Assembly (NCBI RefSeq): GCF_015207255.1
Contig: NZ_JADEXG010000022.1
Location: 1-64,000, forward strand
Source of the DNA: Vasconcelosia minhoensis LEGE 07310
GTDB lineage: Bacteria; Cyanobacteriota; Cyanobacteriia; Phormidesmidales; Phormidesmidaceae
Direction of reading: 5' to 3'
Length of the DNA stretch: 64,000 nt
Every line of letters starts with the position of its first letter. Position 1 is the first letter of the stretch. The notes under the pieces were generated by a model. The model did no database searches, was not told the origin of the DNA, and was given only the letters and a program-made list of their open reading frames with translations. Below, piece by piece: positions 46,127 through 50,069 of this stretch. A program made the translations under genes and the position numbers.

Positions 46127-47077
46127 ATGCCCGAACGTCCAATTATTCTTGGCATTGTGGGCGATAGCGCCGCTGGTAAAACGACCTTGACGCGGGGGAT
46201 TGCTCAGGTTGTCGGGAAGGACGACGTCACCATCATCTGCACCGACGACTACCACCGCTACGACCGCAAGCAGCGAGCTGAGATTGGCATTTCTGCCCTA
46301 GCTCCCGACTGCAACTACCTGGATATTATCGAGCAGCACCTGCAGCTGCTGCGGCAGGGGCAGCCCATCCTCAAGCCGATTTACAACCACTCAACGGGTA
46401 TGTTTGACCCGCCGGAGTACATTCAGCCGAAGAAATTTGTGATCGTCGAGGGGCTGCTGGGCTACAAGACCAAGCGGGCTCGTGATACCTACGATGTGAA
46501 GGTCTACCTGGCGCCGCCGGAAGACCTGCGTACCAAGTGGAAAGTCGGCCGCGATACCCGCAAGCGGGGCTATGAGCCCGAACAGGTGCTGGAGCAGCTG
46601 AGAAAACGCGAGCCTGACTCGGAAGCCTTTATCCGCCCGCAGCGGCAGTGGGCCGATGTGATCGTGACCTTCTACCCCCCCCAGGATGACTCGGAGCAGA
46701 GCGACCTGCTGCTGAACGTCAAACTGGTGCTGCGCCCGACCATTCCTCACCCAGATTTCACCCATATTCTCGATGACAATGGCAACGACTTAGGCGATGC
46801 CATTCGGCTGGGGCTAGACCGCGATATGAGTAAGCCGGTGGACGTGCTAGAAATTGACGGCCATGCCCATGAGTCTCAGGTGCAGCAGCTGGAGCGTATT
46901 CTCTGTAAGGAAGTGCCCCATCTCGGCCAGTTTTGCAGCATTGAAGGCAATACCAATATTGGCAAAATTACCGGCACCACCGGCGAAACGTTGCAGAGCT
47001 ATCCGCTGGCGCTGACCCAGCTTTTAATCACCTATCACATGCTTAAAGCAGCTCAGCGGACGGCCTTGCTTAAGTAG
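46127..47077 (+). CDS. phosphoribulokinase-family kinase (paralog)
   Basis: From ATG 46127 the product is 316 residues: MPERPIILGIVGDSAAGKTT, CTDDYHRYDRKQRAEIGISA, and KPIYNHSTGMFDPPEYIQPK, which fit the phosphoribulokinase/uridine kinase family. The Calvin-cycle enzyme of cyanobacteria has GDSGCGKS in the P-loop, whose Cys forms a regulatory disulfide; here it is GDSAAGKT, with only the second cysteine (Cys38) kept. The whole sequence is of the paralogous type also found in non-photosynthetic bacteria. So it is probably not the main Calvin-cycle enzyme, and its substrate is uncertain. GGAGGAA at 46118-46124 supports this start over 46085. The 3' end overlaps the next gene by 25 bases. Confidence 0.85.
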   Translation: MPERPIILGIVGDSAAGKTTLTRGIAQVVGKDDVTIICTDDYHRYDRKQRAEIGISALAPDCNYLDIIEQHLQLLRQGQPILKPIYNHSTGMFDPPEYIQPKKFVIVEGLLGYKTKRARDTYDVKVYLAPPEDLRTKWKVGRDTRKRGYEPEQVLEQLRKREPDSEAFIRPQRQWADVIVTFYPPQDDSEQSDLLLNVKLVLRPTIPHPDFTHILDDNGNDLGDAIRLGLDRDMSKPVDVLEIDGHAHESQVQQLERILCKEVPHLGQFCSIEGNTNIGKITGTTGETLQSYPLALTQLLITYHMLKAAQRTALLK

Positions 47078-48576
47078 TAGTCGAGCAGCGCCGCATTTTC
47101 CTTCAGACTAACCAGCTGGTTGGCGCAGAGGATGCCCGATGCGGCGACGGCAGGAACGCCGATGCCGGGCAGAGTGCTATCTCCCACTCGGTAAAGCCCC
47201 TGAATGGGGGTTTTACAGCTGGGGAAGGGGCCTTGGTCAGCCGTGATCGCGGGTCCATAAGTCCCCCGATACCGCCGCAAAAAGTGGCTATGGGTGAGCG
47301 GTGTACCAATCAGCTCGACCTCTATTCGCTGGCGAACGTCGGGAATAATTTTTTCTAGCGCCCGAAACAGCGGTTCCACCTTTTCCCGCTTTTTGGCCTC
47401 GTAGGATTCGTCTCGCTGCCAGCCTGCCCAGGTCTCCAGCGTATAGGCATGGATGGCGTGATGCCCCGGCGGGGACAGGTTCGGGTCGAGCACGGTAGGA
47501 ATCGACACCATGCAGGTGTTGCCGGGCGCGGCGATGTCTGCCTCAGTGCTGTGAACTACCACGTGATGAATTGTTAAGCCCTCCAACCCCTCAGCCCGAA
47601 TGCCCAGGTGCAGGTGCATAAAGCTATCGACAGCCGGCGTCGCCAGGGCGGATTTGCGCTTGGGCGTCGGCCGCTGGTCGGGGCCAAGTAGGTGACCATA
47701 GGTGTCCCAAATCGTCGCGTTGGAAATCACCGTAGCGGCTTCCAACCGTTCGCCGGACTGAAGCACCACGCCCCGCGCCCGGCCCTGCTCGGTCCAAATT
47801 TTCTCGACATGGGTGCCCAGCCGCAGCTCTCCGCCCCAGCGCTTGAGACCGCGCACCAGCGCTTCAATAATGGCCCCGCTGCCGCCAATCGGATAGTCGA
47901 TGACCGAGCGCGATCGCTCGCCAAACATAAAGGCCATTTCTGGCGCGACCGTTGCGTCGGCCTTCATCCCCGAGAGCAAAAAGCATTCCAGGTCGAGCAG
48001 CTGCCGTAGCCAGGGATCCTGCACCGTCTCTGCGACGATGTCGCCCATGGACCGGCCCAGATCGCGCAGGTGGGGCAAAAGTTTGACCAAAGCTCCGCCG
48101 TAGCGCCGCAGCAGCAGCGGCAGCAGTTTCCAATCGGCCCGCAGCGCCAGGCTGGGAACCGCCTGCAGTGGCGCATAGAGGTCGAGCAGCCGTTGCTCTA
48201 GTCGGTCAAAATCAGCCGCGGCCTGGGGGCTGACCTGAGCCAGGGCATGACGGTATTTGTCGCCGTCGCCGTAGACTGGGAAGGTCTGCTCGGGGAAATG
48301 ATAGTGGCCAAACGGGTCGTAGGCGATGCTGGGCAGCGGTTCTTCCAGGCTGTCGAGCACCTGGCGCAGCGGATTGGCCGAGGTCGCATCGCTCAGGCCG
48401 CAGTAAAAGGAAGGGCCAGAGTCGAAGGTATACCCCTGCCATTTAAACGCGTGAGCCGCCCCACCGGGCAGCGTATGGCTTTCACAGACGGTGACTCGGC
48501 GACCGTAGCGGGCCAGCAGGGCGGCGGCAACCAGGCCGCCAATGCCGCTGCCAATCACAATTACATCGGTCTGCAT
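47053..48576 (-). CDS. FAD-dependent oxidoreductase, carotenoid isomerase-like
   Basis: The 507-residue protein starts with an FAD/NAD Rossmann motif (DVIVIGSGIGGLVAAALLAR) and the family segment LPGGAAHAFKWQGYTFDSGP. It ends with YRVGDSTLPGIGVPAVAASG. This is the phytoene desaturase / carotenoid isomerase / retinol saturase group. It is close to CrtISO in layout but not clearly CrtISO itself; the substrate may be a carotenoid or related polyene. It is probably membrane-associated. The hypothetical gene at 48584 is just upstream on the same strand. Confidence 0.85.
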   Translation of the reverse strand: MQTDVIVIGSGIGGLVAAALLARYGRRVTVCESHTLPGGAAHAFKWQGYTFDSGPSFYCGLSDATSANPLRQVLDSLEEPLPSIAYDPFGHYHFPEQTFPVYGDGDKYRHALAQVSPQAAADFDRLEQRLLDLYAPLQAVPSLALRADWKLLPLLLRRYGGALVKLLPHLRDLGRSMGDIVAETVQDPWLRQLLDLECFLLSGMKADATVAPEMAFMFGERSRSVIDYPIGGSGAIIEALVRGLKRWGGELRLGTHVEKIWTEQGRARGVVLQSGERLEAATVISNATIWDTYGHLLGPDQRPTPKRKSALATPAVDSFMHLHLGIRAEGLEGLTIHHVVVHSTEADIAAPGNTCMVSIPTVLDPNLSPPGHHAIHAYTLETWAGWQRDESYEAKKREKVEPLFRALEKIIPDVRQRIEVELIGTPLTHSHFLRRYRGTYGPAITADQGPFPSCKTPIQGLYRVGDSTLPGIGVPAVAASGILCANQLVSLKENAALLDYYLSKAVR

Positions 48577-48583
48577 AAATGTC

Positions 48584-49018
48584 TTAAGCGCTCTGAAGCT
48601 GCATCAGGCTACGCTCAATGTCTACCAAAGACTGCTGCACGGCAGCTTCCTCTTGTGGGGTGATTTTCTGGAGCTGCTCAAGCCGCCAGCGGGTGGCCGA
48701 CTCCAGTTCCCGGATCTCTTGCTCAACGTGCTCGCGGGCCGGGTCCGGCAGCGTTTCTAGCACCTGCTGGAGTGCCGCCATCTCTCGCTCAAAGAAGGCT
48801 TGGGACGCCTCAATCTGAGCCTGAACGCCCCCGGCTTTGACGACAGAGTAAATTTCCATCAGCCGACGATAGGCCCGCAGATAGTTTGCGTCGGCGCTAA
48901 CGGTACCCGGCTGAACGCTATATCGGGCTGCGGCTAAGCGTTTCCGCTGCTGCCACCACCGCAGCAGTAGCGGAATCGAGGTTGGGCCAATGACCGGCGA
49001 ATTGGATAGGAGTTGCAT
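48584..49018 (-). CDS. helical hypothetical protein
   Basis: The 144-residue product has a proline-containing N-terminus (SNSPVIGPTSIPLLLRWWQQ), a basic segment and a long acidic coiled-coil-like C-terminal half (REHVEQEIRELESATRWRLE). No signal or membrane helix is clear. I do not recognise the family. It ends seven bases before the carotenoid-isomerase-like gene, so the two are probably co-transcribed, but no role follows. Confidence 0.7.
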   Translation of the reverse strand: MQLLSNSPVIGPTSIPLLLRWWQQRKRLAAARYSVQPGTVSADANYLRAYRRLMEIYSVVKAGGVQAQIEASQAFFEREMAALQQVLETLPDPAREHVEQEIRELESATRWRLEQLQKITPQEEAAVQQSLVDIERSLMQLQSA

Positions 49019-49202: not shown

Positions 49203-49904
49203 ATGGCACTCAAGGCAGTCCTTTTTAATTTTAATGGCGTCATCATCAACGACGAAGCCGTTCACCAGCGGCTGGTCGATCAGCTGCTGCTCGAGCAGAA
49301 TCTGCGACCTGACCCCAAAGAGTATGCCCAGGTTTGCTTAGGTCGTAGCGATCGCGCCTGCCTCCGCGACCTGCTGGCCCAGCGCGATCGCGTTATCACC
49401 GATGCTGACCTGGAGCGGCTGCTGACTCAAAAAACGGCGGGCTATCAGGACTGGCTCAGCCAGGTCAGGGCAGTTCCTACTTATCCCGGCTTAGAAGACC
49501 TGATCTTTCGCGCCCGTGCTGCCCAGCTAAAAATGGCCGTCGTCACCGGGGCCCAGCGCATAGAGGTCGAGCAGGTTTTGGCCAGGACTGAGTTTGCACC
49601 CCACTTCTCAGTGATTGTGGCCGGGGATGAGCTGCCGGCCGAGGCCAGCAAGCCCGCTCCAGACGGCTATCTGCAAGCGATAGAGCGGCTGAATCAGCAG
49701 TATCCTGAGCTGGGCCTACGGCCTGACCAGTGCGTGGCGGTGGAAGATACCTTTGTCGGCATCGACGCGGCCAAAAATGCAGGAATCCCTGTGGTTGGCG
49801 TTGCTCACACGCTGCCGAACCATATGCTACAGCGGACGGCGACCTGGGTAGTGGACTATTTGTCGGAGGTGGAGCTGGAGTGGGTTGGGCGGAGGTATGA
49901 GTAG
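49203..49904 (+). CDS. HAD-superfamily protein with altered nucleophile (beta-phosphoglucomutase-like)
   Basis: The 233-residue protein has the cap and core of a beta-phosphoglucomutase-like HAD hydrolase: motif II VVTGAQ, motif III SKPAPDGYL and motif IV AVEDTFVGIDAAKNAG. Motif I, which should be DxD (FDFDG or FDLDG), is FNFNG, with Asn9 and Asn11 in place of both aspartates. Asp9 is the residue that becomes phosphorylated in the family, so catalysis is doubtful unless an Asn is deamidated. The other motifs are fully kept, which argues against decay. No partner gene is nearby on the strand. Confidence 0.88.
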   Translation: MALKAVLFNFNGVIINDEAVHQRLVDQLLLEQNLRPDPKEYAQVCLGRSDRACLRDLLAQRDRVITDADLERLLTQKTAGYQDWLSQVRAVPTYPGLEDLIFRARAAQLKMAVVTGAQRIEVEQVLARTEFAPHFSVIVAGDELPAEASKPAPDGYLQAIERLNQQYPELGLRPDQCVAVEDTFVGIDAAKNAGIPVVGVAHTLPNHMLQRTATWVVDYLSEVELEWVGRRYE

Positions 49905-49996: not shown

Positions 49997-50069
49997 GGGG
50001 AATTAGCTCAGCTGGTAGAGCGCTGCGATCGCACCGCAGAGGTCAGGAGTTCGAATCTCCTATTCTCCA
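49997..50069 (+). tRNA. trnA: tRNA-Ala (anticodon CGC)
   Basis: The 73 bases fold as a full cloverleaf: acceptor GGGGAAT/ATTCTCC with the G3:U70 wobble pair that marks alanine tRNAs, D-stem GCTC/GAGC, anticodon stem CTGCG/CGCAG with loop ATCGCAC (anticodon CGC, reading GCG), a 5-base variable loop, and T-stem AGGAG/CTCCT with TTCGAAT. The discriminator base is A and CCA is not encoded. The anticodon arm contains a HIP1 palindrome (GCGATCGC). Confidence 0.93.

Follow-up and report, generated by a model that had tools for sequence, protein, structure and literature searches.

A cyanobacterial HAD family with a replaced motif I and a probable catalysis-independent role

The gene at positions 49203-49904 of the window (the whole stretch of 64,000 nucleotides of Vasconcelosia minhoensis LEGE 07310 DNA that was analysed) appears to belong to a family of HAD pseudo-phosphatases built like beta-phosphoglucomutase (beta-PGM); a role independent of catalysis is the best reading of the sequences, and we consider it likely. 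The gene and its relatives have probably been retained for a non-catalytic job, as a nucleophile lost again and again in genes that remain under selection points to a role that would not need catalysis. It seems that the general acid/base aspartate of motif I was replaced family-wide, usually by asparagine, and that the nucleophile was then lost repeatedly. What the computations show directly is the state of each residue, the recurrence of the losses, the purifying selection, the pairing of the genes and their correlated loss.

The gene is an uninterrupted open reading frame on the forward strand, starting from ATG and encoding 233 amino acids followed by a stop codon; the translation begins MALKAVLFNFNGVIINDE. 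Its features are as follows:

49203-49904, plus strand: HAD protein with a C1 cap, beta-phosphoglucomutase-like, a putative pseudo-phosphatase (open reading frame, Pfam/NCBIfam, phmmer)
49227-49238, plus strand: motif I, N9-F10-N11-G12, replacing D-x-D-G (translation and phmmer alignment)
49251-49253, plus strand: D17, a family-specific residue (254 of 255 orthologs), aligned with hinge residue T16 of beta-PGM
49545-49547, plus strand: motif II, T115, intact (translation)
49650-49652, plus strand: motif III, K150, intact (translation)
49743-49748, plus strand: motif IV, E181-D182, intact in the window protein (translation)
49815-49856, plus strand: C-terminal family signature P205...Q210-R211...W215...D218, kept in the absence of the nucleophile and mostly missing in DxD paralogs

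Membership of the HAD superfamily is indicated by profile scores above the curated cut-offs: Pfam HAD_2 gave 85.5 bits (cut-off 23.8), Hydrolase 78 (26.4) and NCBIfam TIGR01509 (HAD-IA) 42.6 (29.4). Agreement with NCBIfam stops at the subfamily level, as the models for beta-PGM itself stayed well below their cut-offs with the window protein (TIGR02009, 94.2 against 153.35; TIGR01990, 85.4 against 189.4). The best PDB sequence matches were beta-PGM of Lactococcus lactis and its relatives (5o6p, 5ok1 and 1lvh; E about 3e-15), with an alignment over residues 3-224 and the same C1-cap HAD layout. The phmmer alignment places N9 and N11 opposite D8 and residue 10 of the Lactococcus enzyme, so that its D8 is replaced by N9 and its D10 by N11; the two best-matching PDB chains, judged by their alignments, themselves carry an Asn there, at residue 10 opposite N11. 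Another difference is that Arg49 of beta-PGM aligns with D50 of the window protein. The nucleophile and the +2 Asp (the general acid/base) of a catalytic HAD phosphatase are thus missing (N9, codon AAT at 49227-49229; N11, AAT at 49233-49235), and the Ser/Thr of motif II, the Lys of motif III and the Glu-Asp of motif IV are present. The 233-residue translation and the phmmer alignment therefore confirm the preliminary description, which had reported NxN in place of DxD with motifs II-IV intact. Since the four other HAD matches within the window genome are all DxD, and since the orthologs change specifically at positions 9 and 11, NxN at motif I is neither chance nor a generic weakness of the motif. 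A structure model computed from two sequences, the window protein and one ortholog (L001), was of unusably low quality (mean pLDDT 53.6, pTM 0.37).

To define the family, 39 genomes were surveyed first, and close orthologs were present in most of them; a search of genome contigs with the window protein alone as the query gave just one relative. A profile (A1) built from 26 orthologs was used for a class-wide search and matched in 256 of 388 genomes of class Cyanobacteriia and in 57 of 63 genomes of the window genome's own taxonomic family. Of 146 genomes drawn from the whole phylum, 57 had matches at E <= 1e-25, all of them within class Cyanobacteriia, and 89 had none, at least 13 of these lying outside the class. 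This is one orthologous family, found only in class Cyanobacteriia within the sampled genomes. The sequence set comprised 260 loci in 259 genomes, from which five partial or split genes were removed to leave 255 full-length orthologs. In one genome (G310, L162/L283) the ortholog is split between two frames that overlap, perhaps through a frameshift or an error in the sequence. No paper naming the HAD family was found among the open-licence papers searched, and the peptides DFNGVI, DFNGIV, FDFNGV and FNFNGV were absent from them too.

Position 9 is Asp in 211 of the 255 full-length orthologs, and the nucleophile is replaced in the other 44, by Gly (17), Ser (12), Glu (9) or Asn (6). At position 11 we found Asn in 219, Ser in 22, His in 8 and Gln, Asp and Arg in 2 each. 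The +2 Asp is therefore absent in 253 of 255, and both exceptions (L094 and L096) are without the nucleophile and read G-F-D-G. DxN is the state of 203 orthologs, D-F-N-G being the commonest motif (171 of 200 loci outside family f1, 34 of 59 within it). Orthologs with DxD, named in the preliminary description as the sign of a strain-specific loss, were looked for, and there were 0 among the 255. The proposal of a conserved cyanobacterial subfamily held for the protein and failed for NxN, which occurs in only 5 of 255 orthologs scattered over four families (the window protein, two in f32, one in f15 and one in f43), the window protein's own clade having N, S or G at position 9. A conserved NxN subfamily was thus rejected; Asn11 is a hallmark of the family and Asn9 is not.

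All of 14 outgroup HADs are DxD, and the loss of the +2 Asp therefore looks like a feature common to the whole family, with the nucleophile losses coming later. In a tree that omitted positions 9, 11, 150 and 182, the orthologs without the nucleophile formed 14 separate clades, and the same count was obtained in three further trees or rootings. The clade of the window protein has 17 members with N, S or G at position 9 (support 0.91-0.92) and the nucleophile in 0 of 17, whereas outside it position 9 is mostly still D. Asn, Glu and most Gly codons are one step from GAT/GAC, and Ser is two steps away. Eight members of f32 (L154, L167, L170, L173, L175-L177 and L180) have a degenerate cap motif (about LGISxRAY in place of LGRSDRAC) and a changed motif II loop, often with a changed motif IV; they mostly keep the nucleophile, and by their sequences the group is another route of degeneration.

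We then compared selection between groups with and without the nucleophile. The within-group dN/dS values are rough, dS being often above 1 and near saturation. Among nucleophile-less groups they were 0.066 in g3 (24 pairs), 0.113 in g13 (8 pairs) and 0.177 in f5 (24 pairs), and, from few pairs, 0.057 in f37 (1 pair) and 0.240 in g7 (2 pairs); in groups with the nucleophile in all or nearly all members they were 0.084 (g12), 0.124 (f24) and 0.120 (f15, including one N member). Nucleophile-less groups are thus under purifying selection similar to that of nucleophile-containing groups, and, as in a pseudo-enzyme, missing catalytic residues are combined with purifying selection, at approximate dN/dS values. 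All five orthologs scanned with Pfam, four of them nucleophile-less, were above the cut-offs of HAD_2 and Hydrolase. The suggestion of a stable, non-decaying, pseudo-enzyme-like protein is supported by the purifying selection (dN/dS 0.06-0.24) and the lack of DxD among the orthologs. Ordinary decay of the gene in this strain would account for the two missing catalytic residues and for a methyltransferase gene (see below) that is not adjacent in the window genome, yet the gene has its full length, no stop and its other motifs intact, the family signature is kept, and whole clades share the loss at low dN/dS. We consider decay very improbable, and its strain-specific form was rejected on account of the clade-wide loss and the low dN/dS.

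Two sets of residues behave differently. Once the nucleophile is gone, the active-site set weakens jointly: similarity-weighted conservation falls from 0.95 to 0.36 for D182, from 0.93 to 0.37 for H21, from 0.96 to 0.41 for N11 and from 0.97 to 0.52 for E18, and by raw count D182 is lost in 30 of 44 nucleophile-less orthologs compared with 10 of 211 nucleophile-bearing ones. The family-specific set holds at 0.85-1.00 in nucleophile-less members, with values of 0.00-0.33 among DxD paralogs. D17, N33, D50, R63, P205, Q210, R211 and D218 are kept with and without the nucleophile and are largely missing from DxD paralogs; Y81, W215 and C177 are kept as well, but are partly shared with these paralogs. 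P205, R211 and D218 are found in 255 of 255 orthologs, and D17 and W215 in 254. These residues, although non-catalytic, are thus better conserved than the nucleophile.

The same counts bear on another explanation, in which the family is enzymatically active through an unusual chemistry: the nucleophile Asp would work together with H21 or some other residue in the role of the +2 Asp, and the window protein would be a late local loss. HAD dehalogenases (DxY) and phosphonatase (DxA) work without the +2 Asp. The nucleophile is retained by 211 of the 255 orthologs, 201 of which also retain the motif IV Asp, so a large part of the family may carry out catalysis, with a residue such as H21, strongly conserved in the D members, as an unusual general acid/base; 197 of the 211 keep the motif II Ser/Thr, the motif III Lys and the motif IV Asp together. 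A late local loss fits poorly with the 17-member clade that has no nucleophile in any member, and mere loss should lead to decay, whereas selection on the groups of this clade (g3 and g13) is as strong as elsewhere. On balance, we regard this alternative as possible but somewhat unlikely.

Engineered beta-PGM carries, in its D10N variant, the same Asp-to-Asn change as the 203 natural DxN orthologs, although it is a laboratory variant with a nucleophile and the window protein has none. The D10N protein is described as holding the bisphosphate in near-attack complexes with the ligand aligned with the nucleophile and as unable to protonate the leaving group, and Arg49 as binding the distal phosphate (PMC11283535). 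As D10N aligns its ligand without proton transfer, the D-x-N members are best taken to be binders with poor turnover or none, unless the acid is replaced by another residue such as H21. We infer that the family proteins most likely have no ordinary phosphatase turnover of a substrate; in D-x-N members, a phosphorylated ligand would be bound together with Mg2+, and any phospho-adduct would be at most slow to form or trapped. The N-x-N, S-x-N and G-x-H members, the window protein included, would be left with binding or scaffolding without catalysis, a role carried by D17, N33, D50, R63, Y81, P205, Q210-R211, W215 and D218. Since D50 stands opposite R49, the distal-phosphate residue, and D17 opposite hinge residue T16, the ligand, if there is one, should differ from that of beta-PGM.

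Elsewhere, HAD domains are known that lack phosphatase activity and act structurally: the fungal terpene cyclase AstC is described as having a HAD-like domain without phosphatase activity that shapes the product of its partner domain (PMC13244436). That domain is eukaryotic, fused to a cyclase and from another family, and is likened here by its description. Among cyanobacterial HAD proteins, Slr0458, Slr0586, Sll1349 and Slr1762 of Synechocystis are phosphoglycolate phosphatase candidates; the abstract of that study reports activity of purified Slr0458 only, and its Discussion low activity of purified Slr0458 and Sll1349 (PMC6278635). Their likeness to the present family is at the HAD level. 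Annotation of such cyanobacterial genes as phosphatases or phosphoglycolate phosphatases would be unsafe.

Asn-Gly is the classic deamidation-prone pair, so that the prone pair in motif I is Asn11-Gly12, and Asn9-Phe10 is slow; deamidation at Asn9, raised in the preliminary description, is thus unsupported. In principle, deamidation of Asn11-Gly12 could restore DxD in D-x-N members and switch the enzyme on, as in a zymogen or timer, and D-F-N-G is the commonest motif of the family. However, position 11 is occupied by S, H, Q, D or R in 36 of the 255 orthologs, and the window protein would need two deamidations, one of them at the slow pair. Such a switch is hardly credible to us.

The surroundings of the gene were also examined. 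In the window they comprise:

47053-48576, minus strand: carotenoid-isomerase-like oxidoreductase, upstream (341 bits against a cut-off of 586.9, TIGR02730)
48584-49018, minus strand: 144-residue protein, upstream (no Pfam/NCBIfam match)
49997-50069: tRNA-Ala, downstream, anticodon CGC

There is no close same-strand neighbour in the window that would make an operon with the HAD gene. In 20 loci of the window's taxonomic family, the 48584-49018 protein is encoded upstream of the HAD gene and opposite to it in strand, and a carotenoid-isomerase-like oxidoreductase is also seen near the HAD gene in other genomes of this family. The commonest neighbour is a SAM-dependent methyltransferase gene directly upstream, in at least 74 of 260 loci and at least 22 families, with 73 of 75 open reading frames on the same strand; these counts are lower bounds, since the flanks were about 1.5 to 2 kb and some ended at contig ends. 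Of the 74 paired loci, 70 have the nucleophile, two are NxN and two are gene fragments. This operon-like pairing also speaks for the unusual enzyme considered above, and draws attention to an uncharacterised pair of methyltransferase and HAD genes. The methyltransferase is UbiE-like (e.g. L005:480-1379), and no curated NCBIfam name scored above cut-off among the 25 matches listed. In the window genome it is present on another contig and is not adjacent to the HAD gene.

A methyltransferase profile (A2) matched in 154 of 388 class Cyanobacteriia genomes. Counting orthologs of known state (two lay in genomes outside the methyltransferase draw), the methyltransferase was present with 138 of 209 nucleophile-bearing and 5 of 44 nucleophile-less orthologs, and was absent with 71 and 39, respectively. 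Three of the five genomes with an NxN member, among them that of the window, still have it, which counts against the pseudo-phosphatase reading; it is also present in eight genomes without any HAD ortholog found. A parsimony test gave an excess that was not significant (5 of 7 losses fell on branches lacking the methyltransferase, p = 0.11) because early losses and regains were placed near the root, and a likelihood model with nucleophile loss set as irreversible was therefore adopted. Under this model, methyltransferase loss was estimated to be 8-10 times faster without the nucleophile (p 5.8e-5 to 1.2e-4 in four trees or rootings), and the reverse dependence, in which the methyltransferase would influence nucleophile loss, was weak (p 0.03-0.09). 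In a control over 60 alignment positions, the nucleophile and 59 of comparable variability, the nucleophile ranked first (statistic 14.6, next 8.9); most of the control positions lean the same way, and part of the methyltransferase signal is therefore general divergence.

Within the pseudo-phosphatase reading preferred here, the function of the D-containing members would be tied to the methyltransferase, and where the nucleophile is gone the methyltransferase would tend to be lost while the HAD protein stays. Tentatively, and with more doubt than confidence, we suggest two separable jobs, one nucleophile-dependent and methyltransferase-coupled and the other independent of catalysis, the protein having become a pseudo-enzyme some 14 times, with the methyltransferase then dispensable and the HAD protein kept. 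If so, the window genome would represent an intermediate state, with the nucleophile gone and the methyltransferase present but not adjacent. Many parallel nucleophile losses beside catalytic-looking sisters in one bacterial family would allow what a single protein does by catalysis to be told apart from what it does without, by comparison and by swaps of natural variants.

We also noticed that the anticodon arm of the downstream tRNA-Ala (49997-50069) includes GCGATCGC, the octamer named HIP1 in cyanobacteria.
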